Notes: a model not told the origin generated them from the letters alone. Numbered from the stretch's first letter, positions 12,295 through 50,065 are shown. The stretch is DNA of 64,000 nt from Spirochaetia bacterium (GCA_022482625.1 JAKVOU010000001.1:2714784-2778783), one strand, 5' to 3'. Made by a program: numbers and translations.

Positions 12295-14373
12295 TTATGT
12301 CGATAATTCAATACGTTGGATTATATGGTCTTGGTAGCACTTGTCCAATTCTACGAAATAGCCGCTCCATCCCCATACACGTACAATGAGGTTGCGATAT
12401 TTCTCAGGATGTTTCTGTGCATCAAGAAGCGTATCTCTGTCAACGGCATTCAGCTGTAGTTGATGTCCCCCGAGGTCAAAGAAAGATTTTACGAATGTAG
12501 CAACTTTTTCGATGCTTTCGGAATTACGGAACATCGTATCATGCAGTTCCAATGTCAGCGGACCACCGTTGACGCATTTTGAAAGATCACTTTTTGTAAA
12601 ACTTTTTATGATTGACACAGGCCCGATATTCTTGCAGAACAGTGACGGTGAATAATTTGCAGGAATTCCTTCTCCTTTGTGCCTGCCGTCAGCAGTGGCC
12701 ATAAGGTCTTTTGAATGCCAGATATAGTACATGGCAGAACCTGTTCCTGCCCGGAAGATACCTCCACGGTCATTTCTATGTCCTTTCAATGCATTGCTGA
12801 AAGTATCCAGCAGATGAGCGGCTATGGCATCCACTTCGTCATCATTGTTTCCCATTTTCTCAGATTCATAACGAAAGATATTGCATATTCTGTTTTCATT
12901 CTTGAAATCATCATTCAGGGTCATCAGCAATGCTTCCTTCGTCATTGTTTTCTGTTCATAGATGTATTTTCTGATGTTTATCAGTGAATCGGCTGCTGTA
13001 GCAAGTCCTGTCCCATGGAAACCATAGTTATTGTATATACAACCTAAAGAAACATCTTTTCCTTTTTCGACACAACCATCCATCATCAACGACAGAAAAG
13101 GGGCGGGAAACAGAAATACGTTCTTTGTGCTGTCCATCAGGTCATTGCATGCTCCCCGGATATTTGCATCTATGGCATCTTGGAAATCCTGATACGTTTC
13201 GCACTCAAGAAGATGTGCCGTCGTGGCATCTGCAACTGCCCCTGCGAAGGACAAAGCTCCGATATTCGGGATATCCATTCCCTTTCCCGGTACAATGAAT
13301 TCCCAGCAGGCAGCGACGACATAGTTATATGCATCTTCCTTACTATATCCTAACTTGATCAGGCCTGGGATGATGATGTCATCACTGCTATATTGGGGAA
13401 AACCAAGACCCTTTTTTGTGAGGTTCGTTCCAAGGATATATGTAGAAAGGGGCGTGTGCCTGTGTACCCGTACGTTGATCTTCGGATCGATGACATGAAG
13501 GTCATAGGCAGCTTTCAGACAAAGTTCTGAAAGGCTGTTGAACTGATCATGTCCTTCTTCATCCATGCCTCCCAGCACCATGCTTTGTCCGTTGTCACCT
13601 TGCTGCATTCCCGGATACATGTCACTGTCACGGTTGAACGTAAGGAAAAATTCCTCAATAAGTTCCAGTGCAGTCTCTTCTGTATATATGCCGTTGTCCA
13701 TATCTTTTTTGAAATATGGATACATGAACTGGTCAAAACGGCCGATGGTATTATGATAATTCCTGCCACACCACATGCAGAAATGAATGATCCGGAACAT
13801 CTGCAGTGCTTCGAGAAAATTCCTTGGAGCAGCTTGCGGTACCTGTGACAATGTCCGTGCAAGAAATGGATTTTTGTTTTCTTTTGCAGCTTCCTTATAT
13901 TTTTCTGCCAGAGCCTCAATTCCATTTAGGATCCGGATTTGCTGTTTTTCAAGATGGGCTTCGTCGAGGCATCCTCTTTTTTCGAAATCAACGATATTCT
14001 TTTCCAATTCAGTTTTTTTTGCCTCAAAGCCGACTGACAGCAGTTTTGCATAGTCAACATTGATATTGCATACATCGCCTTTTTCATGGATATGATAGTT
14101 ATTGGAGAGTTTGGTCATTTCAGAGTCAGTGTAGATCTCGGGGATGACTGGTATCGTCCTTGTAAAACCGATACGTTCATTTTGGAAAACAACGGCTTTT
14201 TCATGCGCAAGTACGTAGAGCAGCCTTTCAGTGGCACGGTCCAGGGGAGAGGTATCATTTTCCTGGAATTGTTCGGCTAGAATAAAAGGATTCACAGGAG
14301 ATTGTCTGAAGGCTTTTTGTCCTTTTTCTTCTATGAAGAATTTCCTTAGTTTCTTTATATGGTCTGTCATCAT
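12295..14373 (-). CDS. Glycyl-radical enzyme, pyruvate formate-lyase/dehydratase superfamily
   Basis: A 692-residue cytoplasmic glycyl-radical enzyme. The C-terminal radical motif is RVWGWSGYF with the radical glycine at about 668. The thiyl cysteine is in YVVAACWEFIVPG, Cys356 with Glu358 two residues on. That Cys-x-Glu arrangement is shared by glycyl-radical eliminases and decarboxylases (glycerol dehydratase, CutC, hydroxyproline dehydratase, isethionate lyase) and differs from the Cys-Cys pair of true pyruvate formate-lyase. The protein is about 100 residues shorter than most described eliminases. Its ATG overlaps the activase stop by 4 bases (ATGA), so the two are translationally coupled. 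A LacI regulator, a sugar-type ABC importer and a Zn-dehydrogenase surround it, so the substrate is probably a polyol or sugar derivative (inference). I cannot assign the reaction. Confidence 0.92.
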   Translation of the reverse strand: MMTDHIKKLRKFFIEEKGQKAFRQSPVNPFILAEQFQENDTSPLDRATERLLYVLAHEKAVVFQNERIGFTRTIPVIPEIYTDSEMTKLSNNYHIHEKGDVCNINVDYAKLLSVGFEAKKTELEKNIVDFEKRGCLDEAHLEKQQIRILNGIEALAEKYKEAAKENKNPFLARTLSQVPQAAPRNFLEALQMFRIIHFCMWCGRNYHNTIGRFDQFMYPYFKKDMDNGIYTEETALELIEEFFLTFNRDSDMYPGMQQGDNGQSMVLGGMDEEGHDQFNSLSELCLKAAYDLHVIDPKINVRVHRHTPLSTYILGTNLTKKGLGFPQYSSDDIIIPGLIKLGYSKEDAYNYVVAACWEFIVPGKGMDIPNIGALSFAGAVADATTAHLLECETYQDFQDAIDANIRGACNDLMDSTKNVFLFPAPFLSLMMDGCVEKGKDVSLGCIYNNYGFHGTGLATAADSLINIRKYIYEQKTMTKEALLMTLNDDFKNENRICNIFRYESEKMGNNDDEVDAIAAHLLDTFSNALKGHRNDRGGIFRAGTGSAMYYIWHSKDLMATADGRHKGEGIPANYSPSLFCKNIGPVSIIKSFTKSDLSKCVNGGPLTLELHDTMFRNSESIEKVATFVKSFFDLGGHQLQLNAVDRDTLLDAQKHPEKYRNLIVRVWGWSGYFVELDKCYQDHIIQRIELST

Positions 14374-15218
14374 AGTATCTTGCTCCTTATTCCATATTTG
14401 GAAAATATCTTTGTATCGAGAAACACTTTTTGGTTTTCATCGAACGGCGGCATATATTTTTCCCCTATCATCTGGTACTTGGCGCCGGCAGCTTTCTGAT
14501 AGGGGAGTAATTCTACTTCCTGCAGGTTCTTGGCGCCGCTGAGAAAACGCGCAGTTTCCTCAAAATTTCCCTGATTGTCATTTATACCCGGTATGCAGGG
14601 AATACGGATGGTGAAAGGTTTGTTACCTTCGAGAAGGAACGAAGCATTTTTCAGAATGGACATGTTGCTTTTTCCGGTGTATTTCCGGTGCAGTGCATCG
14701 TCCATCATCTTGATATCCATGATGATGAAGTCAACGTTCCTATAAATTTCCCTGAACAGGTTTTCGTTTGCATAGCCACTTGTTTCGATGGCTCTGTGGT
14801 ATTGCTTGATCTGGCTGAGGACATCCAGGAGGAATTCGCCTTGTAGCAACGGTTCCCCGCCGCTGAAAGTGATTCCTCCTCCATACCTTGCATAGTAATC
14901 GGCATCTTTGCCTAAGCGTTTTGCCAATGCTGTACTTGAAATGACTTCACCGCAGATATGACGGAGATGCAAGGGACATTCATCGATACACTTGCCGCAA
15001 AGAATACAATTTTCGGGGGAAGGACAGGCTGCATGGCATTTACCGCAATGAGTACAGGAAGCGACGCTTACCATCAGTTGTGGCTTAGGAGAAATGCCCT
15101 CGGGGTTATGGCACCATAGGCAGTGAAGGGGACAGCCTTTCAGAAAAACTGTCTGCCGGATTCCTGGTCCGTCGAAAATGGCCAATTGCTTGATATCAAA
15201 AATAATTCCGCTGAACAT
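14370..15218 (-). CDS. Glycyl-radical enzyme activase (radical SAM)
   Basis: A 282-residue radical-SAM enzyme that installs the glycyl radical on its partner using S-adenosylmethionine. The CxxxCxxC cluster is KGCPLHCLWC (Cys29, 33, 36). A ferredoxin-like insert with two further 4Fe-4S motifs follows (CTHCGKCHAAC and CILCGKCIDEC), as in activases of glycerol dehydratase or CutC and unlike the short PflA. TFSGGEPLLQ is the SAM-binding GGE motif. The stop overlaps the glycyl-radical enzyme start. Transcription probably starts just upstream, where a LacI-type palindrome is found. Confidence 0.94.
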   Translation of the reverse strand: MFSGIIFDIKQLAIFDGPGIRQTVFLKGCPLHCLWCHNPEGISPKPQLMVSVASCTHCGKCHAACPSPENCILCGKCIDECPLHLRHICGEVISSTALAKRLGKDADYYARYGGGITFSGGEPLLQGEFLLDVLSQIKQYHRAIETSGYANENLFREIYRNVDFIIMDIKMMDDALHRKYTGKSNMSILKNASFLLEGNKPFTIRIPCIPGINDNQGNFEETARFLSGAKNLQEVELLPYQKAAGAKYQMIGEKYMPPFDENQKVFLDTKIFSKYGIRSKIL

Positions 15219-20327: not shown

Positions 20328-21776
20328 CTATTGAATATGACTATTGTTTCCTTCCTTTACATATGTATCATAGTAATCAAGATATTTGCTATAATGTTTC
20401 ATATATAGATCATGATGAGAGGTGATTGGATAGACCGCTTTTCTATCTTGTTGTATATATTCTTTTTCTTGTATGTCAAGTATATCCATTGACAAAGCAA
20501 TTCCACCGACCAATGATCCATGCGTGCTACGATCAATTTCAATAGGACGGTTGAATATATCGGTACACATCTGTACCCAGCTTGGGGAATGCAGGATACC
20601 ACCTGAAAGCTGTATTGAATGAGGTTCGTAATTGATGGAGACCAATGAGTTATAACATTGATAGATATTGAAAAGGATACCTTCTTGGATTGCTGTATAC
20701 AAATCGTATATGGATGTATCCGGCTTAAGATTCATGAATATGCCGGAAGCAGTATCCTGCCAGCCCGGGCAACGTTCACCAAATATAAAGGGAAGAAAAA
20801 CGGGTATGTCGGTCTTTACAGTATATGGTAACTCAAATTCACTGTATTTCCAATTGGCCATAGGGCTTAGTAGATTCTTATACCAGTCAATGCAGTTGCA
20901 GGCTCCTGAGGTTGCAGCTCCAGATAACCATGTTTTGGGAGAGTAATAGCACCATGTACTGTGACTTTTTGATAATGCAGGCTTATCTACCGACAGACGG
21001 ATTGCAGCACTTGTCCCGATTGAAAAGGTCATTGTGCCTTTTCCAAGGGCATCGGTTCCTATTTGGTTGAGTCCACCATCGGAATTGGTTAAGATTACCG
21101 GAGTACCCGACTGTATGCCCAAATAACTGGCAATTTCTTTAAGTAACCCTCTTGTTTCAGTGGATTTGATGATTTCGGGCAAAGGACCTTCGTCGATTTT
21201 TGATTCCTCCAGTAACATAGGATGATATGTCAGTTTCCGTATATCGAGGAATCCGCTTCCTGATGCTTCACATTCTGTTACGGCATACCGGCCGGTGAAA
21301 CGGTAATTATTATAAGTTCCTTGTCCTCCGATACGGCAGTTGCTCAGGTCTTTGATTTGTTTCTTTTTGTTTGCCAATTTTAATTTGAAGAAAGGATAGC
21401 TGGCATTTACCATACAACCGGTCATGTTGTAGTAATTATCTGTATATGCTTTGTCTTTCCGTAATTGCAGGCATAGGTCGGATGCCCAGGTACAGTTCCA
21501 TGGCATCATAGGAATAAGAGGATGCATCTTTTTGTCAAATATACCAAAAGAATGCCACGTTCCACCCAATGATATCATATCAATTCGGGACTCGGTATCA
21601 AGGACAGTCCTTGCGACGTCCAACATTGTTTTGAATATGGTTTCTGCATCTTGTAATGTAATATCGTCATACATATGGGGAAAAGCTTTTGTTTCCAAAA
21701 GGGTCTTCCTTGCAGCTGTATCGAAAAGCATGGCTTTTGCTGCCGATGTAGAAGATTCAAGTGCTAGGATTTTCAT
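20328..21776 (-). CDS. FGGY-family carbohydrate kinase (first paralogue)
   Basis: A 482-residue sugar kinase that transfers phosphate from ATP to a sugar or sugar acid in the cytoplasm. The N-terminal phosphate motif is ALESSTSAAKAMLFD, where the usual Asp is Glu; the C-terminal half has GTMTFSIGTSAAIRL, FGERCPGWQD and the FGGY signature-like SIQLSGGILHSPSWVQMCTDIFNRPIE. It is closely similar, roughly 70-75% by eye, to the kinase at 38.0-39.5 kb. It lies 288 bases downstream of the TTT transporter genes in the same direction, so it probably phosphorylates the imported, desulfated compound (inference). Confidence 0.88.
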   Translation of the reverse strand: MKILALESSTSAAKAMLFDTAARKTLLETKAFPHMYDDITLQDAETIFKTMLDVARTVLDTESRIDMISLGGTWHSFGIFDKKMHPLIPMMPWNCTWASDLCLQLRKDKAYTDNYYNMTGCMVNASYPFFKLKLANKKKQIKDLSNCRIGGQGTYNNYRFTGRYAVTECEASGSGFLDIRKLTYHPMLLEESKIDEGPLPEIIKSTETRGLLKEIASYLGIQSGTPVILTNSDGGLNQIGTDALGKGTMTFSIGTSAAIRLSVDKPALSKSHSTWCYYSPKTWLSGAATSGACNCIDWYKNLLSPMANWKYSEFELPYTVKTDIPVFLPFIFGERCPGWQDTASGIFMNLKPDTSIYDLYTAIQEGILFNIYQCYNSLVSINYEPHSIQLSGGILHSPSWVQMCTDIFNRPIEIDRSTHGSLVGGIALSMDILDIQEKEYIQQDRKAVYPITSHHDLYMKHYSKYLDYYDTYVKEGNNSHIQ

Positions 21777-21978
21777 GATATTTCCTTGATTTATGATTTA
21801 TTTCCAAGTTGCGGCTTGATTGGGGAAAATACAAACGATTTCTATTGCTCGGTTTCTGTGGGTTTGTCTCCATATCAGAAATAACTGTCCTTTCCTAAAA
21901 ACACAAACTTAACTCCAGAACAGATATCCATCAGCTTTAGGAACTGTGCCGGTTGTATCCTGCTATCCGATCAATTAA

Positions 21979-22006
21979 TGTTTCATTGAAAATGACATTG
22001 TTTCAT
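21979..22006. promoter_or_regulatory. Direct repeat TGTTTCATT upstream of the first FGGY kinase
   Basis: TGTTTCATT occurs twice, at 21979 and 21999, 20 bases apart. The same octamer TGTTTCAT forms the inverted repeats upstream of the sigma-54 promoters at 49-63 kb. No sigma-54 promoter was found between here and the kinase, so a regulatory link is uncertain. The remainder of 21777-22063 shows nothing else. Confidence 0.3.
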
Positions 22007-22063
22007 TTCTTGCTCATGCCTCTACATGTTGTCAGCAGTTATGTATGCCTCGTAAAATTTGCG

Positions 22064-23545
22064 TTATGCTTTTTTATGCTTCAGCATGACAAAAATGATA
22101 CTGGCAATTGATGCCAAAATGAAAAAGAGCGAAATCGGAGAAGTAAAAAAAGGAATCAGACTATTGTCACTGTATGAAAGACCCCGTCGCAGATACAATT
22201 CTGCCAAAGGTCCGATAATATACCCGATAATAAAAGGCTGGGTACTAAAATGCCATTTCTTCATAAAAAATCCTAAGATTCCAAACAAAAATATTGTAAA
22301 TACATCAAAAATCCTATAATTCAAACCATAGGCACCGATGATACATAATAAGCTGATAAAAGGTAACAATATATGTTTTGGCAATGAAAGTACGTGTACG
22401 AATCCTCTGATTGCAAAAAATTCTACGACAATCATAAAAATATTTGCAGTTATCAAAATTGCGAATATCAGATAAATCAACGAAGTGTTGTTTCGGAAAA
22501 GCAAAGGTCCCGGTGTCAGTCCTTGCATAGTCATTGCACCAAGTAATAAGGCTGTAACAGCATCTCCAGGGATTCCCAAGGACAAAAGGGGAATCATTGC
22601 TCCTCCTATTGCTGCGTTGTTTGCGGTTTCAGAGGCAACAATGCCCTGATTACATCCTGTACCGAAAATTTCTGGAGTCTTTGAACTTCTTCTGGCAATA
22701 TCATAGGACATCATGCTGGCAAGTGCTCCTCCGATTCCAGGAAGAATACCTATCAAAACTCCTATAGCCGATGAACGGAAGATGTTTCCTGTTTCTTGTT
22801 TCCATTCCTTGAAAGAAAAACCAAATCCTTTGAAAGATAACTTTTTTACTATCTTTTTGACCAGATGTTCACTTTTTTCATCTACATAGAGGAAAAGTTC
22901 GGATACTGCAAAGATACCGATCAAGACTGCAACAAGATTGAAACCATTTGAGAGAGAAGTAATGCCGAATGTCAGTCGTGGAATTCCATCAATCGGAGCA
23001 CCCCCGATCATGGCAAGCAATATACCTAGGAAACCCGATATGATTCCTCGGATGATGTTCTTGGATGACATGGTAATTATCATTGTCAGGGCAAACAGCA
23101 TCAATGAGAAATATTCAAAGCTACCGAATCTGATGGCAATTTTTGCCAAGGCAGGCGAAATGAAAATCAAGGCACAGATGCTCAGCATGCCTCCTACGAA
23201 TGACGAACAGATACCTAATCCAAGAGCCTTGCCAGCATATCCTTTCTTTGCCATCGGATAGCCATCGATCGTCGTAGCTATGGAAGCCGCTGTACCGGGT
23301 ACATTCAATAATATTGCGGCAACAAGACCTCCTGAAAAACCACCGATATATAACCCCAGCAGCAATGATATGCCCATATTGGTATTCATTGAGAATGTCA
23401 AAGGTAAGCAAAGGGCAATTGCCATGGTTGTTGAAAGTCCTGGGATTGCACCAAAGAAGATCCCGATACCGACTCCGAGCAATACCAAGAACAGTATACT
23501 AGGATGCAATACCGTCGAAAAGGCACTTAGAAAAAGATGTAGCAT
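22064..23545 (-). CDS. tctA: Tripartite tricarboxylate transporter large membrane subunit TctA
   Basis: A 493-residue, roughly 12-segment inner-membrane protein. The family-defining stretch GVGIGIFFGAIPGLSTTMAI is near the N-terminus and ATNNAAIGG-type repeats (ASETANNAAIGGAMIPLLSLGIPG) lie mid-protein. It forms the translocation channel of a TTT carboxylate importer with TctB (9 bases upstream) and the binding protein TctC. AGGAGG precedes the ATG. Confidence 0.94.
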   Translation of the reverse strand: MLHLFLSAFSTVLHPSILFLVLLGVGIGIFFGAIPGLSTTMAIALCLPLTFSMNTNMGISLLLGLYIGGFSGGLVAAILLNVPGTAASIATTIDGYPMAKKGYAGKALGLGICSSFVGGMLSICALIFISPALAKIAIRFGSFEYFSLMLFALTMIITMSSKNIIRGIISGFLGILLAMIGGAPIDGIPRLTFGITSLSNGFNLVAVLIGIFAVSELFLYVDEKSEHLVKKIVKKLSFKGFGFSFKEWKQETGNIFRSSAIGVLIGILPGIGGALASMMSYDIARRSSKTPEIFGTGCNQGIVASETANNAAIGGAMIPLLSLGIPGDAVTALLLGAMTMQGLTPGPLLFRNNTSLIYLIFAILITANIFMIVVEFFAIRGFVHVLSLPKHILLPFISLLCIIGAYGLNYRIFDVFTIFLFGILGFFMKKWHFSTQPFIIGYIIGPLAELYLRRGLSYSDNSLIPFFTSPISLFFILASIASIIFVMLKHKKA

Positions 23546-23554
23546 CCTTACCTC

Positions 23555-24025
23555 CTAACGTAGGAATAAAATTCCAATAGGGACATTTATCTTGAAAAGG
23601 AAATCAAAGATAAAATATACACAGACTGTAAAAATCACCGAAAGCATCAGGTAACGTAGTATTTTATTTTTTGTTACTGCTTCTTGATCCAGCAAGCACA
23701 TTTCTCCGAATAAAAAGAAACTACCACAGAGAATCAAACCAAAGATTTGAAGACCCAGACCACAACAACCGAACAAAACGACGGATAGGATGATTTTTTT
23801 ACTGATGGAAATCTTTTCCTCTCCTGGTTTCTTCGTTTTGACATAAAGCACTTGATTGACAATAGCCAAGGAGAACAGTACCAAGATTACGAAACGAGGT
23901 AATGCTGCAGGTCCTACTGAAAGCATCTTATTCCTTTTTACAATGTAAAAAGAATCAATAAAGAAAGATAATGATAAAATTATAAGAAAAAGTGAAGAAG
24001 GCAATATACAAGATTTTTTTCTCAC
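23555..24025 (-). CDS. tctB: Tripartite tricarboxylate transporter small subunit TctB
   Basis: A 156-residue membrane protein with four hydrophobic segments, the normal TctB size. I start at a GTG at 24025 that overlaps the sulfatase stop by 4 bases (GTGA), with GAGAGGAA before it; the frame continues 40 codons upstream inside the sulfatase gene, which cannot be membrane-protein sequence. The overlap means translational coupling of a transporter subunit to a sulfatase. Confidence 0.85.
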   Translation of the reverse strand: MRKKSCILPSSLFLIILSLSFFIDSFYIVKRNKMLSVGPAALPRFVILVLFSLAIVNQVLYVKTKKPGEEKISISKKIILSVVLFGCCGLGLQIFGLILCGSFFLFGEMCLLDQEAVTKNKILRYLMLSVIFTVCVYFIFDFLFKINVPIGILFLR

Positions 24026-25494
24026 CGTATTCCTCTCTGTAATTTCATATCCCGTCCACGGAACAATTTGTTGTTGTCTTTTAGTGAAGATATGAATTGA
24101 TAGTCTTTGCTTGGCAAGCCGACGAATTTTCCATTCTTGATCCAATCAGAATCTTTTCCATGTAACTTAGCTTTTAATTGGTCCTTTAATTCCAGAATTA
24201 TCTGTCGGTAGGCTGGTTCTGCGATAAGGTCGTGCATTTCATTCGGGTCATTGATCCTATCAAAGAATTGGAATTGGTTTCCGACAGCATAATAAATCAA
24301 TTTGTACTTTTGGGTAAGTATCATCCTTGTTGCTCTGTCATCTTCCCATAGTTCACAATAACTATAAGTCCTCTTTTTCTGATCCAACATTGAAATACCA
24401 TCAACATCATCAGGAATTTCCAATCCAGTCAATTTCAGTAGGGTTGGCATGATGTCCTTGAGTTCAACAAGTCTGTCATCCACAACGCCGCATTGGCAGT
24501 CCGAATCATAGGTCGGAATCAGAATCATCGGAATGTTTACAGAGTTTTCATACATGAGGAACTTGCCCCATAGGTTATGGTTACCGAGCATTTCTCCATG
24601 ATCAGCGGTAAACAATAGTATGGTATCTTCCAGGATTCCTTCTTCCCGCAATGTACCTATTACTAGTCTGATCTGATGATCAATATGGGTGCAAGTGGCA
24701 TAATAGGCTTTTTTGGCATTCGCCAATTTTCGTTTGGTATCGATATGATACATTTTGGAATAGTACTGGTAGGCAAATGGCAAAGTATCTGTTTTCATTA
24801 CCCAATCTCCGATATAGGGTTCACGGAATTCTATATCTTCATACATATCCATATAGTCCTTCGGTGGTACTAGCGGCGGATGAGGTGCACTATAGGAAAG
24901 GTACCAAAACGCAGGTCTTGTCGGATCTCTTCTTTTGATTGTTTCACACATGTCCCTGGTTGCCCATGTGGTTGGATGAAAAGCTTCATCCAGGTGAAAA
25001 GGGCGTGCGAAGTAATCATTATTGCACATACCATGGGCAAATTCCAATCCTGGAAAGCCATTTTTCATCAAGAACCTTTCATAATCATCTTGCTGAAGTC
25101 CTTCAAAATGTCTTCCTTCTTCACAGAGATGCACATCATCGAATCCTATTCTGTTCCGTTGCGGAAATACATGTAGCTTACCCGTTGCATAGGCTTGGTA
25201 TCCATTGTTCCGAAATACTTGGGCCAACGTTGGCAAAGTGGAAGGCATTTCAAGCTTGGTGTTGAAAATCCTATCGCCATGCTTGACATCGCCGACACCA
25301 AGCATCAGCTCCCTTCTGGCAGGGATACTGACAGGTGTCGTTGAAATAGCGTTGGTATATCGGATGCCATAATTTGCCAGTTCATCCAAAGATGGCGTAA
25401 GGATTTCATTTTCTCCTGCACAGCCCAAATACTTGCCTGACCATTGGTCGACAGTAATCAATAGTACATTTTTCCGTTTCATTTTAAAGCCCAT
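24022..25494 (-). CDS. Sulfatase, Ser-type, cytoplasmic
   Basis: A 490-residue member of the alkaline phosphatase/sulfatase superfamily. Metal-binding residues appear in LLITVDQ near the N-terminus and TADHGEMLGNHNLWGK later. The active-site signature is S-I-P-A-R at residues 56-60, with Ser as the residue converted to formylglycine; Ser-type sulfatases need a radical-SAM maturase, which is not in this window. There is no signal peptide, so it acts inside the cell. It sits between tctC and tctB, implying that a sulfated carboxylate or sugar acid is imported and then desulfated (inference). A choline-sulfatase or phosphonate monoester hydrolase-like specificity cannot be excluded. Confidence 0.88.
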   Translation of the reverse strand: MGFKMKRKNVLLITVDQWSGKYLGCAGENEILTPSLDELANYGIRYTNAISTTPVSIPARRELMLGVGDVKHGDRIFNTKLEMPSTLPTLAQVFRNNGYQAYATGKLHVFPQRNRIGFDDVHLCEEGRHFEGLQQDDYERFLMKNGFPGLEFAHGMCNNDYFARPFHLDEAFHPTTWATRDMCETIKRRDPTRPAFWYLSYSAPHPPLVPPKDYMDMYEDIEFREPYIGDWVMKTDTLPFAYQYYSKMYHIDTKRKLANAKKAYYATCTHIDHQIRLVIGTLREEGILEDTILLFTADHGEMLGNHNLWGKFLMYENSVNIPMILIPTYDSDCQCGVVDDRLVELKDIMPTLLKLTGLEIPDDVDGISMLDQKKRTYSYCELWEDDRATRMILTQKYKLIYYAVGNQFQFFDRINDPNEMHDLIAEPAYRQIILELKDQLKAKLHGKDSDWIKNGKFVGLPSKDYQFISSLKDNNKLFRGRDMKLQRGIR

Positions 25495-25682
25495 GTGTCC
25501 TTCTAAAACTGATTTTTATTTATGATAAATGAATAAAAGACTTGTTATTTCAGTTTGAAATTTCTTGGCCCAAGATACTGGTTGATATGATTATGTTTTC
25601 TCTGCATTATATGGATTCTTATGCTTGTAAGTGGCATAGGACCCGTTCATTGCACAGTTGTATGATTTTTCCAATTACTTTC

Positions 25683-25713
25683 CTACTTCCATAGTTTTTG
25701 ATTATGGAAGTAG
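25683..25713. other. mRNA hairpin between tctC and the sulfatase gene
   Basis: CTACTTCCAT-N11-ATGGAAGTAG, a perfect 10-bp stem starting 13 bases after the tctC stop, without a T-run in the transcribed direction. Such hairpins often stabilise the binding-protein part of a transport operon message. The rest of the 231-base gap shows nothing. Confidence 0.55.
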
Positions 25714-25725
25714 AAAATAAAACGC

Positions 25726-26673
25726 TTAAATCAACTTGTCTGCATAGCGTTGATAAAGTTGTTCTTTTTGCTGGATTATATCCAAAGCTTCTGATGGAGT
25801 CGTATAGTTGACAATGACTTTGAACTTGCTTATTGCATTCAGCATATCCTTGTTGTCACATGTCTTTTTCAATGCTTCACTTAATTTATTGACTACAGTG
25901 TCCGGTGTCTTCGGAGGAAGTGCAATATAGAAGATCTTTGGGATGACAATATCATATCCCTGTTCTTTCAATGTCGGCACGTCAGAAAAAGCTGGGTTCC
26001 GTTTGTCTGCCATAATTCCTAAGGAAACAAAATCACCATTTTGTACATACTGTTGCATTATTCCATATTGTGAAAAGAATAGATCAATCCTTCCGGCCAG
26101 CATATCTGCAATTCTATCAGAAGCACTTGTTGAATCGACATATTTGAAATTTGCATGTAGCTTTTCCTGAAGAATGACAGGACATAGCTGTGCAAGCGAA
26201 CCAGCTGCTGCACTCACGATGACCTGTTCACCTGAAGATGCCCGTGTGAAAAAGTCCTTTGCATTTTTATATTTCTTTGCGTTTACTACAAATGTTGAAT
26301 TCGGATCTTGGATGCAGACACTGACGATTTTGTAATCAGACAATTTGATGTCAGTCAATCCACAAATTTGTGCAATTACTGCAGCATCATGAAAAAATAA
26401 GAGGGTATATCCGTCAGGTCTTGCATTGTAAACTTGTCTGCCTCCGATTGTTCCAGTTGCTCCATCAATATTTTCGACCGCTATGTTGGTATCAAGTTCT
26501 TGTCCCATATATTGGGCAAGTATACGTCCATAGGTATCAGTGTCACCGCCAGCTTTGACAGGAATGACCATGGTAATATCCCTATTAGGATATTCTTCTT
26601 CCTGAGTACCATTGGCCATTGCAAAGCCAGTACATAACAATAGCAGGACTCCACAAATAAAAATTTTTTTCAT
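25726..26673 (-). CDS. tctC: Tripartite tricarboxylate transporter substrate-binding protein TctC
   Basis: A 315-residue periplasmic binding protein of the TctC/BugE type. The Sec signal MKKIFICGVLLLLCTGFAM ends in ANGTQEEE; the mature protein begins with YPNRDITMVIPVKAGGDTDT, the beta-strand/loop that binds the substrate carboxylate in this family, and has GATGTIGGRQVYNARPDGYT. It captures the ligand for the TctBA channel. First gene of the TTT/sulfatase operon and divergent from an RpiR regulator. Confidence 0.94.
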   Translation of the reverse strand: MKKIFICGVLLLLCTGFAMANGTQEEEYPNRDITMVIPVKAGGDTDTYGRILAQYMGQELDTNIAVENIDGATGTIGGRQVYNARPDGYTLLFFHDAAVIAQICGLTDIKLSDYKIVSVCIQDPNSTFVVNAKKYKNAKDFFTRASSGEQVIVSAAAGSLAQLCPVILQEKLHANFKYVDSTSASDRIADMLAGRIDLFFSQYGIMQQYVQNGDFVSLGIMADKRNPAFSDVPTLKEQGYDIVIPKIFYIALPPKTPDTVVNKLSEALKKTCDNKDMLNAISKFKVIVNYTTPSEALDIIQQKEQLYQRYADKLI

Positions 26674-26968: not shown

Positions 26969-27805
26969 ATGATTATCAGTTGTTTGAAGAAGGTTGAGGA
27001 CAGTGGTCCGACTTGCAGCTATTCAGAACGTTTGATTCAGAAATATATATTGGAAAATTCAAAAAGTGTCATAGAAATGTCAGTGTATGAATTGAGTAGG
27101 GTGGTAAAAGTTGCTCCTTCAACAATTGTACGTTATATGAAAAAAATGGGATTTTCTGGTTATCGGGATTTCAGGATAAGCTTGCATTCTGAATATCTTT
27201 CTACTTCGCAGCAAAAATGGAATATGATGCCGGTTACCAGCAATGTTTTTCAGAATGTTGTAGAGACCAATTGCAAGTCTTTAGGAAATGCATTCAAGGA
27301 AACTGATATACGTTGCCTGGATGCTGCGGCTTCTCTTTTGGTTTCTGCTAGGCGAATAGTATTTTTTGGAATCGGTACCTCAGCAATAATTGCGAGCGAT
27401 GCCCACGATTTATTACTGAAGTTAGGTTTGAATTGTTCAATAGATAACAATTTGCATCACCAACTCTTGACAGCAGCCTTGATGGACAAGGATGATGTTG
27501 CATTTATTATTTCACAGTCCGGTGTAAACAAGACTATCTTGAAAATTGCTGAAATATTGATAACGAGAAAAATCAATTCTGTCGGAATCTGTAATTATGA
27601 AAAAACACCCTTTCCCAAAATGGTAACCATACCTATTTGTCCATTTGTACAGGAAGAAGATTCGTTTCCCAGTAGGTATCTTTTCCAAATTCCAATTCTG
27701 TGCATCATAGAAACCTTATACTATATGGTCGAAGAACGTTTGGGTACAACTGTAAATGAAGTGTTGGGAAAAACCCGGCAGATCATAGAATCCGAATCAA
27801 TTTAG
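26969..27805 (+). CDS. RpiR-family transcriptional regulator (SIS domain)
   Basis: A 278-residue regulator. An N-terminal helix-turn-helix of the RpiR type (SVYELSRVVKVAPSTIVRYMKKMGFSGYRDF) is followed by a SIS phosphosugar-binding domain (IVFFGIGTSAIIASDAHDLL, VAFIISQSGVNKTIL). It is divergent from tctC with a 295-base intergenic region and most likely controls the TTT/sulfatase operon in response to a phosphorylated sugar. GGAGGGAG precedes the ATG. Confidence 0.9.
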   Translation: MIISCLKKVEDSGPTCSYSERLIQKYILENSKSVIEMSVYELSRVVKVAPSTIVRYMKKMGFSGYRDFRISLHSEYLSTSQQKWNMMPVTSNVFQNVVETNCKSLGNAFKETDIRCLDAAASLLVSARRIVFFGIGTSAIIASDAHDLLLKLGLNCSIDNNLHHQLLTAALMDKDDVAFIISQSGVNKTILKIAEILITRKINSVGICNYEKTPFPKMVTIPICPFVQEEDSFPSRYLFQIPILCIIETLYYMVEERLGTTVNEVLGKTRQIIESESI

Positions 27806-31802: not shown

Positions 31803-31856
31803 TTGACAAGATGATAAAAAAGCTTATTATGGACACATGGTATGGCCATCATACCA
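31803..31856 (+). promoter_or_regulatory. TRAP operon promoter with GntR operator copy 2
   Basis: TTGACA (31803-31808) and TATTAT (31825-31830) are spaced by 16 bases. TGGTATG-GCCAT-CATACCA (31838-31856), perfect 7-base arms, begins at the expected start site, an ideal position for repression by the divergent GntR protein. Confidence 0.7.
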
Positions 31857-31870
31857 GTAAAGGAGTGAGT

Positions 31871-32881
31871 ATGAAAAAGCTTTTTACTTGTTTTTTGATT
31901 GCGCTGTTAGGAATGTCTGTCGTAGTTGCACAAGGTAAAACCGAATCTACGAAAAACATTTCCTCTTCACAGAGAAGGGTAATAAAGATTGCCCATGCAA
32001 ATGGAACGACATGGCCTGGGCATAAGGGACTTGTGAAAATGAAAGAGGTGCTCGATTCAGATCCAAATTGTGACATTACCATTGAAATCCTTCCGAATGG
32101 AGTTCTTGGCGGTGAAAATGAAGTGCTCCAACAAGTAATCCTTGGAACAACTGATGCTTCTCTTCTTACAGGATTAGGTTTCTGGCAAGGAATGGATGAG
32201 AGGACTGCGGTTGATGAAATGCCTTTCTTTTTTACGACAAAGGAGCAAGCCAGAAACGCCTATGATGGTAGATTCGGTAATCGAATAAAGGCGATACTCG
32301 ATGCAACAGGTGTAAAAACCATTAATTTCTGGGAATCAGGGTTCAGACATTTTACAAACAATATAAGACCGATAGTGAAGCCTGAAGATATGAAGGGCAT
32401 CAAATTCAGATCATATCAAGGGGAATATCGTATGGCTATGTTCAAAGCTTTAGGAGCTACGGCCGTACCTATGGCTTTGACTGAAGTTTTTGCTGCACTT
32501 CAGCAAGGGACTGTTGACGGGCAGGAGAATCCACTTCCGATGATTGAGGCCAACAAATTCTATGAGGTCCAAAAATATCTTTCTCTGTCAGGGCATATCT
32601 ATAATACCTCTACGCTGATTATCAATCCAAAATTATGGAATTCTCTTTCTGACGAAGACAAGAAAGCTTTCAATACAGCTGCTCAGGCCGGTTGCAAGGA
32701 ATGCAGAAACCTGATGGATGAAGAAGACAGGACTATCATCGAAAAATTCAAGGCTGCAGGAATGCAGGTCAATGAAGTAGATAAGGCTGCTTTTGCAAAA
32801 GCAATGCAACCCATATATGACAAGTACATCAATGCCTGCGGTGATGAACTTATAAAATTAGGTCAGGAATATACCAAATAA
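31871..32881 (+). CDS. dctP: TRAP transporter substrate-binding protein DctP
   Basis: A 336-residue periplasmic binding protein. Sec signal MKKLFTCFLIALLGMSVVVA-QGKTE; mature TRAP DctP features include FWESGFRHFTNNIRPI, KGIKFRS and the conserved LQQGTVDGQENP. It binds an organic acid, probably a sugar acid, for the DctQM channel. I start at 31871, preceded by AAAGGAG; the frame extends 20 codons upstream across the promoter/operator, so the longer form is unlikely. Confidence 0.93.
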   Translation: MKKLFTCFLIALLGMSVVVAQGKTESTKNISSSQRRVIKIAHANGTTWPGHKGLVKMKEVLDSDPNCDITIEILPNGVLGGENEVLQQVILGTTDASLLTGLGFWQGMDERTAVDEMPFFFTTKEQARNAYDGRFGNRIKAILDATGVKTINFWESGFRHFTNNIRPIVKPEDMKGIKFRSYQGEYRMAMFKALGATAVPMALTEVFAALQQGTVDGQENPLPMIEANKFYEVQKYLSLSGHIYNTSTLIINPKLWNSLSDEDKKAFNTAAQAGCKECRNLMDEEDRTIIEKFKAAGMQVNEVDKAAFAKAMQPIYDKYINACGDELIKLGQEYTK

Positions 32882-32907
32882 TCAAAAGAAGATCAGGAAA
32901 AAGAAAA

Positions 32908-33411
32908 ATGAGGAAGTTCATCGAGTATTCCAAAAGGCTATTGGAAATTGTCTGCGGTATCCTGCTGATTGCATTGACAATTGTAATCTTTGCCCAGGTA
33001 TTCAGCAGATTTGTCTTACATCATTCTTTTGCATGGGCAGAAGAAGCTTCCATTTACATGATGATTTGGATGGTCTTCCTGGGAACTTCAGTAAATGTCC
33101 TAAAAGAATCAAATATCCGTATTGATTTCTTCATTCGACTTTTTCCTGAAAGTGTCCAGAAAATCATTGGCATCGTATCAGATCTGATTTGTATCGGCTT
33201 CATTGCAATACTGTGCCGACAATCATTTTTGATTGTAAAATTGAATCTGCATAATTTGGCAGCAGGAATCAAGATACCAATTGCGGTCATGTATGCAGGA
33301 TTCTCAGTAAGTGCAATCATAATGGTTTTGTATTTTCTGATTCGAATAGGTGTCTGTCTCAAACATTTCCCAAAAGCCAAGTGTAAAGGTCAGGTAGAAA
33401 TAAATGATTAG
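32908..33411 (+). CDS. dctQ: TRAP transporter small membrane subunit DctQ
   Basis: A 167-residue inner-membrane protein with four hydrophobic segments and the DctQ pattern SRFVLHHSFAWAEEASIYMMIWMVFLG. It bridges binding protein and channel. Its end overlaps the dctM start by 8 bases, indicating coupled translation. Confidence 0.92.
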   Translation: MRKFIEYSKRLLEIVCGILLIALTIVIFAQVFSRFVLHHSFAWAEEASIYMMIWMVFLGTSVNVLKESNIRIDFFIRLFPESVQKIIGIVSDLICIGFIAILCRQSFLIVKLNLHNLAAGIKIPIAVMYAGFSVSAIIMVLYFLIRIGVCLKHFPKAKCKGQVEIND

Positions 33412-34684
33412 TGTACTTTTTATAACTTTGTTGGTCATGTTGATCATTGGAGTCCCTGTCGGATTTTCCGTCATGATCTGTTGCATGAGCTTTTTGATGG
33501 CTGATGGAACGACTCCGTTGGTAATTGTTGCCCAAAAAATGGTTGATGGTATCGGTTCCTTTACTTATCTTGCAATGCCGTTGTTTATTTTTTCAGGAAA
33601 TCTGATGATTTATGGAAGTACGCCCCGATTGATGAAATTTGCCAATTTGCTTCTTCATCGTGTTCCTGGTGGTTTGGGCGCAGCAGGAATCGGTGCATGT
33701 GGATTGTTCGGATGTGTTTCAGGTTCCGGAGTTGCTACGACAGCAGCAATTGGTTCAGTTGTCGGGCCGGAGATGATCAGTAAAGGCTATGATAAAGGAT
33801 ATACGGCTTCCATTATTGCTGCATCAGGCACACTTGGAGGTATCATACCTCCTAGTATTACGCTGGTACTGTATGCAGTTGCCACAAATCTGTCAATTGG
33901 AAACATGTTGCTCTGTGGATTTGTTCCGAGCATGCTGTGTGTGGTCGGTTTCATTTTCCTCAATGTGATAATCTCGAAACGAAGAGGATACGGGGTTGGC
34001 TCTGAGGGTGATTACAATTATACGGGCAAAGAAAAACTTAAGATCATCGGAGACGCCGTTTTACCTTTGTTTACGCCATTGATTATTCTTGGGAGCGTAT
34101 TGTTTGGAATTGCTACTGCTACTGAATCAGCAGTCGTGGCAACTGTCTATGCAGCAATCCTTTCAATATGTGTATACAAGGAACTGGGACTTAAACAATT
34201 CTTCAAAGCTGCAGAGGAGAGTGCTATATCTGCAGCATCCATCATGATTATCATTTCTGCTGCTTCACCTTTCGGTTGGATTATGACTTCAAAGAATGTA
34301 ACTTCAGCAATGGCACAGTTCATTATGAAGATAAGTTCTGAACCTTTGGTGGTGTATAGCCTGATAATTGTACTGTTGATTTTTTTGGGTACGTTCATGG
34401 AAGGTCTGAGTACCATTGCAGTCCTTTCTCCGATGTTGCTTCCGATCGTGCAGAATTATGGTATGAATCCTTATCATTTTGGTATCCTCATTGCAATCGC
34501 TACTTGCATTGGTTCCTGTACGCCACCCATGGCTACCTGTTTGTTTACTTCTTGTAGAACGCTGAAACTGGAAGTGTCAGATACCTTCCCTGATATTTTT
34601 ATAGTCTGCGGATATTTCATCATTATGGAATTCATTCTTCTATTGGTACCGCAGATTACGACATTTATCCTGAATTTCGTTTGA
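33404..34684 (+). CDS. dctM: TRAP transporter large membrane subunit DctM
   Basis: A 426-residue channel protein with about 12 membrane segments. Family motifs: IGSFTYLAMPLFIFSGNLM, GCVSGSGVATTAAIGSVV and GGIIPPSITLVLYA. It uses the sodium gradient to import the ligand captured by DctP. The enzyme genes start 28 bases downstream. Confidence 0.94.
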   Translation: MISVLFITLLVMLIIGVPVGFSVMICCMSFLMADGTTPLVIVAQKMVDGIGSFTYLAMPLFIFSGNLMIYGSTPRLMKFANLLLHRVPGGLGAAGIGACGLFGCVSGSGVATTAAIGSVVGPEMISKGYDKGYTASIIAASGTLGGIIPPSITLVLYAVATNLSIGNMLLCGFVPSMLCVVGFIFLNVIISKRRGYGVGSEGDYNYTGKEKLKIIGDAVLPLFTPLIILGSVLFGIATATESAVVATVYAAILSICVYKELGLKQFFKAAEESAISAASIMIIISAASPFGWIMTSKNVTSAMAQFIMKISSEPLVVYSLIIVLLIFLGTFMEGLSTIAVLSPMLLPIVQNYGMNPYHFGILIAIATCIGSCTPPMATCLFTSCRTLKLEVSDTFPDIFIVCGYFIIMEFILLLVPQITTFILNFV

Positions 34685-34712
34685 TTGTCAATTTTACTTT
34701 GGAGAAAATACT

Positions 34713-35801
34713 ATGAAAAAAATCAGAACTGCCATTATTGGCTGTGGTAAGGTCGCGGCTTCCCATGCCCAGGCATACCAGGACATTCCTGCTTCTGAAT
34801 TCACTGCTGTATGCGATGTGGACGAAAGAAGAGTACATGGATTTGCCCAGGGCCATGGGGTAAAAGGCTATACAAGCATTACCAAGATGATTGAAGACGA
34901 AGGAATTGAAGCCGTCAGTGTCTGTACTCCGCATCCTATACATGTCAAAGCATGTGTTGAAGCTGCAAGTTGTGGTTGCAACGTAATAGTCGAAAAACCT
35001 TTTGCAGTGAACAAGGCTGATTGTGATGCGATGATTGAAGCAGGCGAAAAAAACAATGTTCTTATCGGAACTGTTTTCCAAAGAAGGTTTTATGCCCCAT
35101 GTCAAAGGATAAAAAAGGCAATTGTGGATGGAAAGATCGGCAAACCGGTCCTGGGAAATGTAACAATGCTGGGATGGCGGGATAAAAGATATTATGCATC
35201 TGACCCATGGCGTGGTACGTGGAAAGGAGAAGCTGGAGGAGTTCTGCCGACACAGGCCTGCCATCAATTGGATTTGCTTCTTTGGTTCATGGATTCCGAT
35301 ATTGCTGAAGTATACGGGACATGGAGGAATTTCAACCATCCGTATATTGAAGTAGAGGATACTGCCATAGCTGTCATAAAATTCAAGAATGGAGCGGTTG
35401 CAACAGTGACGGCAAGCAACTCACAGAATCCTGCACTGTTTGGGAAAGTCCGGATAAGTGGTGATAATGGTGCAACGGTAGGTGTCCAGACAGATGGTGG
35501 CGCTATGTTCATTGCTGGTATGACTCCAATTACTGAATCTCCTTACAATGATATCTGGACCGTAGATGGTGAAGAAGGTTGCCTTGATTTATGGAAAAAA
35601 GAAGACCATGACAGGTTTTTCAAAAATGATCCTACAGAGCATTATCACAGGTTGCAAATTGAAGATTTTATCCATGCAGTGATTGAAAAACGTAGTCCGC
35701 TGGTAAGTGGTATTGATGGAAGGAAGTCTGCAGAACTGATGCAGGCAATTTATCAGAGTTCAAAATTAGATAGACCAGTGAAATTTCCTCTGGAATTTTG
35801 A
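34713..35801 (+). CDS. Gfo/Idh/MocA-family oxidoreductase
   Basis: A 362-residue NAD(P)-dependent dehydrogenase. The N-terminal Rossmann motif is AIIGCGKVAASHAQAY, and the family's EKP motif is present as VIVEKPFAVNKADCD. The C-terminal alpha/beta domain provides GGVLPTQACHQLDLLLW, where the His is a typical catalytic residue. These enzymes oxidise a ring or chain hydroxyl of sugars, inositols or sugar acids. First enzyme after the TRAP genes. Confidence 0.9.
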   Translation: MKKIRTAIIGCGKVAASHAQAYQDIPASEFTAVCDVDERRVHGFAQGHGVKGYTSITKMIEDEGIEAVSVCTPHPIHVKACVEAASCGCNVIVEKPFAVNKADCDAMIEAGEKNNVLIGTVFQRRFYAPCQRIKKAIVDGKIGKPVLGNVTMLGWRDKRYYASDPWRGTWKGEAGGVLPTQACHQLDLLLWFMDSDIAEVYGTWRNFNHPYIEVEDTAIAVIKFKNGAVATVTASNSQNPALFGKVRISGDNGATVGVQTDGGAMFIAGMTPITESPYNDIWTVDGEEGCLDLWKKEDHDRFFKNDPTEHYHRLQIEDFIHAVIEKRSPLVSGIDGRKSAELMQAIYQSSKLDRPVKFPLEF

Positions 35802-35804
35802 AAG

Positions 35805-36671
35805 ATGAAGCTTGGTTTCAATGAAGCGACAGGAATGGGCTGTTCGGACTTGGAGACAGATATTCGCTTATGCTGGAAAGCTGGATTCGATTATCTTGAA
35901 ATCCGTTTGGATATGCTGCATGACTATTTGCTTACTGGTACATTTGATGATTTACGGTCTTTATTGGAAAAATATCCGATCAAGCCCCATGCGTTGAATG
36001 CTGTATATATTGACTCTGGTTTGATCACGTCATACCAAGACTCTCAGTTGCAGCTCAATGAGTTGTTGGCACAGTTTCAACATGTTTGTTCCGAAGCAAA
36101 GGAAATAGGCTCAAACTATGTAATTGTCGTGCCTCCCTTGGAAAAGACAGATTTTTCTACGCTTTTTAGGATTGATTGGAAAACTGTTTGTAAGAAATGT
36201 ACCGACATACTCAAATGGATGTCAGATATAGCTTGCAGATATTCGGTGAATATTTGCTTTGAACCTGTCGGAGCGCCTAAAAGCAGCGTTCGGTCAATTG
36301 CCCAGGCGAATATGATCATCAACTTGGTAAACAGGCTTAATGTCGGTTTTGTACTGGATGCATATAACCTCTATATGTACCACATGTCGAGTGACTATGG
36401 TGATATCGCAACGTTGCCGCCGGAAAAAATCTTTGCTGTCCATATCAACAATGCAGATGCAGTCAAGCCAAGCCTTGAAGCTAGACGCTTTTGTGATTCA
36501 GGAGTAATTGATTTGGGCTTTTTCTTGTCTGAAATCAAGAAGAAAAACTATCAGGGTATGGTTTCTATTGAAACATTCAGGCCGGAATACTGGGAAATGA
36601 CACCAGAAATCGTCATCAACAGAGCCTATCAGACGACCCATGAGATTTTGGAACATTACCAATGTATGTAG
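35805..36671 (+). CDS. Sugar phosphate isomerase/epimerase (xylose isomerase-like TIM barrel)
   Basis: A 288-residue cytoplasmic AP-endonuclease-2-like TIM barrel. Metal-site segments: NICFEPVG, VGFVLDAYNLYMYHM, IFAVHINNADAV and GMVSIETFRPEYW, giving the Glu/Asp/His/Glu set usual for the fold. Probably isomerises or epimerises the keto intermediate made by the preceding dehydrogenase. Starts 3 bases after it. Confidence 0.85.
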   Translation: MKLGFNEATGMGCSDLETDIRLCWKAGFDYLEIRLDMLHDYLLTGTFDDLRSLLEKYPIKPHALNAVYIDSGLITSYQDSQLQLNELLAQFQHVCSEAKEIGSNYVIVVPPLEKTDFSTLFRIDWKTVCKKCTDILKWMSDIACRYSVNICFEPVGAPKSSVRSIAQANMIINLVNRLNVGFVLDAYNLYMYHMSSDYGDIATLPPEKIFAVHINNADAVKPSLEARRFCDSGVIDLGFFLSEIKKKNYQGMVSIETFRPEYWEMTPEIVINRAYQTTHEILEHYQCM

Positions 36672-36687
36672 TGGCAGGAGAAAAAAT

Positions 36688-37971: not shown

Positions 37972-38003
37972 TTTCGGAATGGATCACAAGTAAGGTAAAT
38001 ATC

Positions 38004-39464
38004 ATGAAAATTCTAGCAATTGAATCCTCAACATCAGCAGCAAAGGCTATGCTATTTGATACGAAGACAAGGAAAACATCCATGCAGACAAAAACTTTTC
38101 CGCGAATGTACGAAGATATTACCCTACATGACCCGAAAGTTGTTTTCATGACGATGCTTGATGTTGCAAAGACCGTTCTTTGTGCCGAGTCTCGGGTCGA
38201 CATCGTGTCATTGGGCGGAACATGGCATTCCTTCGGACTGTTTGACAAAAAAATGCATCCTCTGGGTCCTGTGATGCCATGGAACTGTACCATGGCGTCT
38301 GAATTATGCATGAAACTACGGAAAGACGGAAAATATGTAGATGATTACTACAACATAACCGGCTGTATGGTAAATGCCATCTACCCGTTTTTTAAATTGA
38401 AATTGGTGAAGGACGATGTAACTGACATCCATGCATGCTATATAGGGGGGCAGGGAACTTTCAACAACTATCGTTTTACCGGTCGACATATCGTAACGGA
38501 ATGTGAGGCATCAGGAAGCGGTTTTCTGGACATACGAAGATTGTCATACCATCCTGCGTTGCTGGCAGAGTCGGAAATAGACGAAAGTTCTTTGCCAGAG
38601 ATTGTAAAATCTACTTCAACATATGGATTGCAGAAGGAGGTTGCTGATTATCTGGGCATATTGCCGGGTACTCCGGTGATTCCAACGAATTCCGACGGTG
38701 GACTCAATCAGATCGGTACAGGTGCCATCGAAAAAGGAATAATGACTTTTTCAGTCGGTACAAGTGCTGCAATCAGATTGTCGGTTGATAAGCCGATCTT
38801 GCCAGCAAATCACAGTGTGTGGTGCTATTATTCCCCAAAAGGCTGGTTATCTGGGGCTGCAATATCTGGAGCATGTAATTGTATCGATTGGTACAGGCAA
38901 TTGCTGAGTCCCTTGGCTTCTTGGAATTATGACAGATTTGAATTGCCATATACCAGCAAGGCTGATATTCCCATTTTTCTTCCTTTCATATTCGGCGAAC
39001 GCTGCCCTGGCTGGCAAGATACAGCATCTGGCAGATTAATGGATCTTAAACCAAATACATCCATCTATGACTTATATATTGCAATCCAAGAGGGAATCCT
39101 TTTCAACATCTACCAATGCTACAGTTCTTTGGTCCGCATCGATTCCGAACCTCAGCTGATAAAACTTTCCGGTGGTATCCTGCATTCTTCTGGGTGGACT
39201 CAAATGTGTGCGGACATATTCAATCGCCCAATTGAAGTTGACCGGAGTATGCAGGGGTCGTTGACTGGAGGAGTTGCTCTTTCAATGGACGTACTCAACA
39301 TGCAAGAAGCCAAGAGTGAATATGTGCACCAAGATGGGAAAATCATTTATCCAATTGCCTCTCGCCATGAGTTGTATATGAAGCATTATGGAAAATACCT
39401 TGAATACTATAGTGAACTTGCAAATGAAGAGAATAAGGAGTCAGGATGTCAAAATATTTTGTGA
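38004..39464 (+). CDS. FGGY-family carbohydrate kinase (second paralogue)
   Basis: A 486-residue sugar kinase with the same signatures as the 20.3-21.8 kb copy: IESSTSAAKAMLFD (Glu for the usual Asp), GIMTFSVGTSAAIRL, FGERCPGWQD and LIKLSGGILHSSGWTQMCADI. Roughly 70-75% identical by eye to it, so the two arose by duplication and serve different operons (TRAP here, TTT/sulfatase there). It commits the substrate to phosphorylated central metabolism. Its end overlaps the next gene by 19 bases. Confidence 0.9.
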   Translation: MKILAIESSTSAAKAMLFDTKTRKTSMQTKTFPRMYEDITLHDPKVVFMTMLDVAKTVLCAESRVDIVSLGGTWHSFGLFDKKMHPLGPVMPWNCTMASELCMKLRKDGKYVDDYYNITGCMVNAIYPFFKLKLVKDDVTDIHACYIGGQGTFNNYRFTGRHIVTECEASGSGFLDIRRLSYHPALLAESEIDESSLPEIVKSTSTYGLQKEVADYLGILPGTPVIPTNSDGGLNQIGTGAIEKGIMTFSVGTSAAIRLSVDKPILPANHSVWCYYSPKGWLSGAAISGACNCIDWYRQLLSPLASWNYDRFELPYTSKADIPIFLPFIFGERCPGWQDTASGRLMDLKPNTSIYDLYIAIQEGILFNIYQCYSSLVRIDSEPQLIKLSGGILHSSGWTQMCADIFNRPIEVDRSMQGSLTGGVALSMDVLNMQEAKSEYVHQDGKIIYPIASRHELYMKHYGKYLEYYSELANEENKESGCQNIL

Positions 39465-45796: not shown

Positions 45797-45798
45797 AT

Positions 45799-46866: not shown

Positions 46867-47090
46867 AAACGGCTTTGATGATATTTTCTTCTGGGTCAGC
46901 ATTGAAAAAGGTTTACTTCCAGAGTGTTCGTGTTAGAATGGCATGCATATGAAAGAAGGCCTATCTCCGATTGAATGGAACGTGATGGCTGCCAGGTGGT
47001 ATGCACTGGCATATCTACTGCAGGTGAAGGTCCCATATGGATGTTCCTTTCTGATGATGGCAGGATTACATGCTTTGTAGGATATAACAG

Positions 47091-48956: not shown

Positions 48957-48977
48957 TTCAGCATAGGACACGTTTTT

Positions 48978-49014
48978 GGCATGCTGCGTCAGAAGTCATT
49001 TACTTCTGTATGCC
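48978..49014 (+). terminator. Possible terminator hairpin after the sigma-54 activator
   Basis: CAGAAGT-N5-ACTTCTG stem nested inside GGCAT/ATGCC, 22 bases past the stop. No clear T-run follows, so this is weak. Confidence 0.35.
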
Positions 49015-49078
49015 GATGGGTCGTATGACCTTTCCTTATCTTTCTGTGTGGCTATGTTTTATCTGACTGTTCAGAACG

Positions 49079-49103
49079 TGTTTCATAGGTATTGAATGAA
49101 ACA
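49079..49103. promoter_or_regulatory. Upstream activator site, TGTTTCAT-N9-ATGAAACA
   Basis: A perfect inverted repeat with 8-base arms centred 146 bases before the -24 element of the sigma-54 promoter, the classic enhancer distance. The same arms recur at 54425-54438 and 62956-63002. Probably bound by the PrpR-type activator encoded just upstream. Confidence 0.7.
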
Positions 49104-49251: not shown

Positions 49252-49286
49252 GTAGTACTCCTTGAAAACAAAAGGGAGGAGTGTCT

Positions 49287-50052: not shown

Positions 50053-50065
50053 AGGGGGTAGGTGA

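Follow-up and report, generated by a model that had tools for sequence, protein, structure and literature searches.

A TTT transporter operon with an embedded, predicted cytoplasmic sulfatase suggests uptake of a sulfated sugar acid in a Spirochaetia bacterium

In a 64,000-nucleotide stretch of DNA from an anaerobic Spirochaetia bacterium (hereafter the window), the genes of a TTT transporter are interleaved with the gene of a predicted cytoplasmic sulfatase and followed by an FGGY kinase gene. We consider it likely that this operon imports a sulfated sugar acid and desulfates it internally, which is the best-supported reading of the sequence and had been suggested in the initial annotation of this DNA. 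It is favoured by a TTT-sulfatase adjacency about ten-fold over chance in the bacterial family, by the recurrence of the pairing in other bacteria, and by sister loci in which sugar-acid enzymes, a maturase and TauE/SafE exporters are encoded beside the same pair. Within the window operon, the kinase is the sole gene hinting at the acid.

Organisation and regulation of the operon

Five genes were identified on the minus strand from position 26673 to 20328, in the order tctC, S1-type sulfatase, tctB, tctA and FGGY kinase (Table 1). ORF lists, Pfam searches and the sequence itself confirmed this gene set as initially annotated. TctA, TctB and TctC are encoded together and their PF01970, PF07331 and PF03401 domains score above cut-off. 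The nearest solved homologues of TctC are 4x9t, BugD (2f5x) and terephthalate-binding proteins.

Table 1. Features of the operon, its surroundings and the two other TTT-sulfatase loci of the genome. Positions refer to the window unless a contig is given.
Feature	Position	Strand	Evidence or content
tctC, TTT solute-binding protein with signal sequence	25726..26673	-	PF03401, E 2.7e-30
15-bp RNA stem-loop just 3' of tctC	25679..25717	-	Fold -17.8 kcal/mol (centroid)
S1-type sulfatase, predicted cytoplasmic	24022..25494	-	PF00884, 1.9e-38; SGSH_C PF16347, 1.7e-21
tctB, 156 aa, GTG start	23555..24025	-	PF07331, 1.8e-11
tctA, 12-TM permease of TTT	22064..23545	-	PF01970, 4.7e-149
FGGY-family sugar or sugar-acid kinase	20328..21776	-	PF00370/PF02782, both FGGY domains
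RpiR/MurR-type regulator (HTH_6 + SIS), divergent from tctC	26969..27805	+	Pfam
Second FGGY kinase, 73% identical	38004..39464	+	Inside run 31811-40399
L151	G000:C1:371545-377001		Two sulfatases flanking TctCBA; TauE, LarA-type and glucose-6-phosphate-isomerase-like genes
L152	G000:C1:1600384-1608314		Two sulfatases with maturase between, TctCBA

The sulfatase stop codon TGA (24024-24022) overlaps the tctB start codon GTG (24025-24023) in a GTGA, with AGAGGA ahead. The sulfatase is separated from tctC by 231 bp and the kinase from tctA by 287 bp, which restricts translational overlap to the sulfatase-tctB junction. The 231-bp gap contains the stem-loop, whose stretch has a z-score of -4.26, none of 200 shuffled sequences being equally stable. 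Its role is probably that of a 3' stabiliser or attenuator, letting TctC outnumber the products of the downstream genes. A scan of the operon gaps for promoters and terminators yielded no more sites than in shuffled sequences, and only this stem-loop stood out. The kinase is likely co-transcribed with tctA, the intervening 287 bp being devoid of a convincing promoter or terminator. The divergent RpiR protein is probably the regulator of the operon, and RpiR homologues are likewise divergent from the sulfatase in four sister loci (L063, L064, L066 and L067).

The G+C content of positions 10000-42000 of the window, operon included, is mostly lower (0.37-0.45) than that of the flanks (mostly 0.45-0.52), and this stretch may be an acquired island. 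It also holds, at 12295-15218, a short glycyl radical enzyme (692 aa, under every curated cut-off) and its activase, adjoining an alcohol dehydrogenase and an ABC sugar importer. A large segment at about 45000-64000 is present a second time in G000:C1:2824000-2845000, most of its proteins being 87-98% identical between the two copies.

Location and active site of the sulfatase

No export signal precedes the sulfatase, in agreement with the initial annotation: the core strand KNVLLITVDQ runs from residue 8 and the formylglycine motif lies at residue 56. Because the protein begins directly at the core strand, it is predicted to be cytoplasmic. An N-terminal signal sequence was likewise found in 0 of 39 TTT-linked sulfatases inspected by eye. 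A cytoplasmic sulfatase had been presented as a departure from the norm; this did not hold, cytoplasmic sulfatases being ordinary in this lineage.

The protein combines the PF00884 fold with the C/S-x-P/A-x-R motif of S1 formylglycine sulfatases, here of Ser type (SIPAR, residues 56-60, with the Ser56 codon at 25329-25327). Its best scores were obtained with the PRK13759 arylsulfatase (404.5 bits, under the 481 cut-off) and a Mn-dependent arylsulfatase model (280 bits), followed by choline-sulfatase TIGR03417 (174 bits, under the 433 cut-off) and a PehA-type phosphoric/sulfuric ester hydrolase (157 bits, under the 900 cut-off). An AlphaFold model with a mean pLDDT of 71, and below 50 in the active-site loop 54-78, was used for the fold and not for the pocket. 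The closest folds were 9koq (EfAS of Enterococcus faecium, Foldseek 6e-33) and 7oz8 (BT1918, S1_46), the latter, at 28% identity, being among the best structure matches. The active-site residues of EfAS, as named in PMC12421950, were mapped onto the window sulfatase by alignment. Nine of these ten positions are identical: D16, Q17, R60, K106, H108, H205, D298, H299 and K311, corresponding to D20, Q21, R65, K110, H112, H220, D311, H312 and K324 in EfAS. The exception is the replacement of Cys by Ser.

Among 139 sulfatases compared at the formylglycine site, 131 have Cys, 6 are unreadable by pattern and the window sulfatase is the only confident Ser-type, one other apparent Ser being probably a misreading. 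Ser56 could mean a lost or changed sulfatase chemistry. The genome encodes an anSME-like maturase, located between two other sulfatases (TIGR03942, 341 bits, 8 below the curated cut-off of 349). The two substrates of dual-substrate maturases are Cys and Ser. Anaerobic sulfatase maturases are reported as dual-substrate enzymes in a title cited in PMC10838667. EfAS cleaves sulfates, phosphates and phosphonates (PMC12421950). The window sulfatase may similarly be promiscuous, and its substrates could extend to phosphate or phosphonate esters.

Linkage of TTT transporters and sulfatases in the family

We calculated how often sulfatase and TctA genes are neighbours in the bacterial family to which the window belongs, using 14 genomes. 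These contain 87 TctA genes and 102 sulfatase hits, the latter grouped into 71 sites. Of these sites, 16 lie at most 3 kb from a TctA gene, whereas genome sizes predict 1.66 (Poisson-binomial P 1.6e-12). As some of the 14 genomes had been chosen for having hits, the count was repeated without the window and three loci seen beforehand, leaving 12 against about 1.7 expected. The TctA-sulfatase pairs are spread over 8 genomes and 22 of 23 are on the same strand. As a control, FGGY kinases were found near TctA in 3 of 90 cases (1.76 expected), and each of these three clusters also contains a sulfatase. This control speaks against generic catabolic clustering as the source of the linkage.

Three TTT-sulfatase loci were detected in the window genome; L151 and L152 belong to other sulfatase and TctA branches than the window operon. 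The same genome also encodes a TctCBA-UlaG-UlaF-UlaE cluster, without sulfatase or kinase, showing that a TTT beside an ascorbate-type pathway occurs in this organism. UlaG was searched for beside the window operon and was absent. Elsewhere in the genome (G000:C1:3248177-3250346), sulfatase hits are split over several frames with a stop, and probably correspond to a decayed sulfatase.

Distribution across phyla

Scanning GTDB genomes yielded 80 loci. The TTT-sulfatase pairing spans Clostridia, Alpha- and Gammaproteobacteria and a termite spirochaete (L065); it was found in Rhodospirillales (L078), Granulosicoccus (L086), Halomonas (L135), and in Silicimonas, Phaeobacter and other Rhodobacteraceae (L079, L091, L097, L125 and L140). 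The nearest relatives are Clostridia, namely an Enterocloster bolteae MAG (65%) and a rabbit Oscillospiraceae MAG (66%), in which an RpiR gene is divergent from sulfatase-TctC-TctB-TctA. The initial annotation had proposed searching for its gene order in other genomes: the pairing recurs, and the exact tctC-sulfatase-tctB order is restricted to the window among the loci examined. As far as sequence can tell, the outcomes that it had named as able to overturn its proposal, an exported sulfatase, or a gene order unique to this genome combined with a TctC binding only unsulfated acids, are not what was found, the sulfatase having no export signal and the pairing being shared with other genomes.

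In the sulfatase tree and in the TctA tree alike, the window operon groups with the clostridial loci L063 and L064 in a single clade with a support of 100, indicating that the module moves as a unit. TTT genes are missing beside many members of the sulfatase clade; some members adjoin ABC importers together with heparinase II/III and GH29, others GH88. When linkage was used as a label on the sulfatase tree, at least 16 changes fell on well-supported branches, a rough count given the long branches present. Thus, TTT linkage has been repeatedly gained and lost.

Enzymes encoded in sister loci

The neighbours of the pair in other genomes point to polyhydroxy acids. L164 (4927-14679) is organised as TctCBA-sulfatase-FGGY-UlaG-(351 aa)-UlaE-UlaF, with a UlaG scoring 636 bits (cut-off 306), and L161 (2773-9917) as TctCBA-sulfatase-FGGY-UlaG-(351 aa). 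From their gene content, both loci are candidate pathways for L-ascorbate 2-sulfate or a related acid. A protein of 336-351 aa is conserved beside UlaG (L164:12101-13156, L170:9045-10055 and L179:2581-3618), and its L164 copy of 351 aa has no Pfam or NCBIfam match.

Enzymes of four-carbon acids are encoded in two other loci. L163 reads TctCBA-sulfatase-GntR-maturase-TauE-OtnK-OtnC. In Phaeobacter sp. J2-8, L125 (9968-21407) reads sulfatase-TctC-TctB-TctA-alpha/beta hydrolase-TauE-LtnD-OtnK-OtnC-second sulfatase; its sulfatase and that of the window share a clade, and the reading frame of its threonate dehydrogenase (LtnD) looks interrupted. We regard L125 as a candidate sulfated-tetronate operon. 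Further sugar-acid genes include an IlvD/Edd-family dehydratase, followed by a maturase, in the continuation of L064, an enolase-superfamily (MR/MLE) gene resembling arabinonate/galactonate dehydratases in the Halomonas locus, and LarA-type genes in L162 and L151, while Paenibacillus orthologues adjoin a D-galactonate/GudP-type carrier (TIGR00893, 480 bits, cut-off 395). TauE/SafE exporter genes are present in six of the TTT-sulfatase loci, as would be expected if a sulfur oxyanion were freed inside the cell.

The FGGY kinase and its second copy

The best solved homologue of the operon kinase is 3gbt, labelled gluconate kinase (3.6e-47). The kinase scored 168 bits against gluconokinase TIGR01314, under the 649 cut-off, and reached no equivalog cut-off. 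A copy with 73% identity is found in a run encoding a TRAP transporter, a Gfo-Idh protein, a sugar epimerase, a LarA-type (nickel-pincer) racemase and a 2-hydroxyacid dehydrogenase. This shared kinase leads us to propose that the TRAP operon serves the free acid and the TTT-sulfatase operon the ester. Orthologues of either copy that could name the substrate were sought in 196 relatives, and none was found outside the window's own genome.

Proposed pathway and alternative explanations

These elements can be assembled into an inducible uptake-and-desulfation operon. Outside the cytoplasm, TctC would bind a small dianion with both a carboxylate and a sulfate-ester group; a sulfated sugar acid is the most likely one. 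TctAB would then bring it into the cell as an ion-coupled symporter. The anaerobic maturase of the genome would convert Ser56 into formylglycine, and the sulfatase so activated would strip the sulfate in the cytoplasm. The FGGY kinase would then phosphorylate the freed sugar acid or its product, directing it to central metabolism. Most simply, the organism would possess one sugar-acid pathway with two entries, the ester taken up through the TTT-sulfatase operon being that of the same acid as in the TRAP operon, or of a related one.

Part of the sequence context would also suit a sulfated uronate, or a short uronate-containing oligosaccharide, released from a sulfated glycan, instead of a free aldonate-type acid. 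Relatives of the same family lie beside GH88 (L044 and, by sequence similarity, a homologue in L051) or in clusters that also encode heparinase II/III and GH29-like proteins (L045 and loci like it), and unsaturated alginate oligosaccharides are a known TTT cargo (PMC13390454). However, the lyase-bearing relatives use ABC importers and the sister TTT-sulfatase loci encode enzymes for sugar-acid monomers, which makes a uronate cargo rather unlikely in our opinion. A glycan-lyase context for the window operon was itself rejected, no lyase or glycosidase being found among the called genes of this operon, L063 or L064.

Another alternative, in which the TTT carries a phosphorylated or phosphonylated acid and an enzyme of this fold hydrolyses phosphonate monoesters or phosphodiesters, appears very improbable. 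The mixed activity described for EfAS (PMC12421950) speaks for it, Gln17 and His299 fit a PMH-like metal site, and an unmodified Ser could serve as a phosphatase-type nucleophile; yet the arylsulfatase models score far above PehA (404 and 280 bits versus 157), and the loci repeatedly include a maturase and TauE/SafE exporters. We give hardly any credence to a sulfated carboxylate that is not a sugar acid, for example an aromatic one such as the sulfate of a gut phenolic acid. Although TTT binding proteins for terephthalate exist and the NCBIfam label is arylsulfatase-like, the kinase and the sister-locus enzymes act on polyhydroxy acids, and we noticed no gene for degrading aromatics in the vicinity of the operon.

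Comparison with known systems

To our knowledge, the known ula and OtnK/OtnC pathways comprise no sulfatase. UlaG/UlaE/UlaF or LtnD/OtnK/OtnC of the E. coli ula (L-ascorbate) and four-carbon pathways are found in L164, L161, L163 and L125, but E. coli ula uses a PTS and not a TTT, and the window operon itself has no ula or Otn enzymes. EfAS and BT1918 resemble the window sulfatase in fold and active-site set, at about 30% identity and with Cys instead of Ser; a further difference is that BT1918 takes part in host-glycan degradation.

The window transporter resembles other TTT transporters (TctCBA, TC 2.A.80), such as SlcHFG for sulfolactate and the alginate TTT of Vibrio C42, in having all three subunits with their Pfam domains and in its expected acid cargo. 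It differs in the interleaving of its permease genes with a sulfate-ester hydrolase gene, the known TTTs being described with unsulfated acids or a sulfonate. Published cargo comprises citrate, sulfolactate, terephthalate, aldarates and unsaturated alginate oligosaccharides (PMC5812351, PMC13390454), so that a dianionic sulfated sugar acid is plausible. The initial view of TTT systems as usually linked to unsulfated carboxylates needs qualifying accordingly, TTTs for sulfolactate, aldarates and unsaturated uronates being already known. Our literature search, which covered open-licence papers, retrieved no paper on the TTT-sulfatase pairing. The component families are known, and their recurrent combination and the predicted pathways look undescribed in the open-licence literature searched.

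Biological implications

A TTT coupled to a cytoplasmic sulfatase could be a general route, repeatedly assembled by bacteria, for small sugar-acid sulfate esters, a proposal whose chances we judge to be even. It would exist in an ascorbate-type version (TctCBA-sulfatase-FGGY-UlaG-UlaE-UlaF), perhaps for L-ascorbate 2-sulfate, in a version for four-carbon acids (sulfatase-TctCBA-TauE-LtnD-OtnK-OtnC) and in that of the window for its own acid. Mentions of sulfated sugar acids as nutrients of bacteria are scarce, and this reading supplies named candidate substrates, e.g. ascorbate 2-sulfate and threonate sulfate. If it is true, a widespread transporter-sulfatase-exporter unit would allow gut, termite and marine bacteria to use sulfated acids without a secreted sulfatase, and the little-studied TTT family would gain a new class of cargo. 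The pairing in unrelated bacteria points to a little-noticed route for sulfated organic acids.
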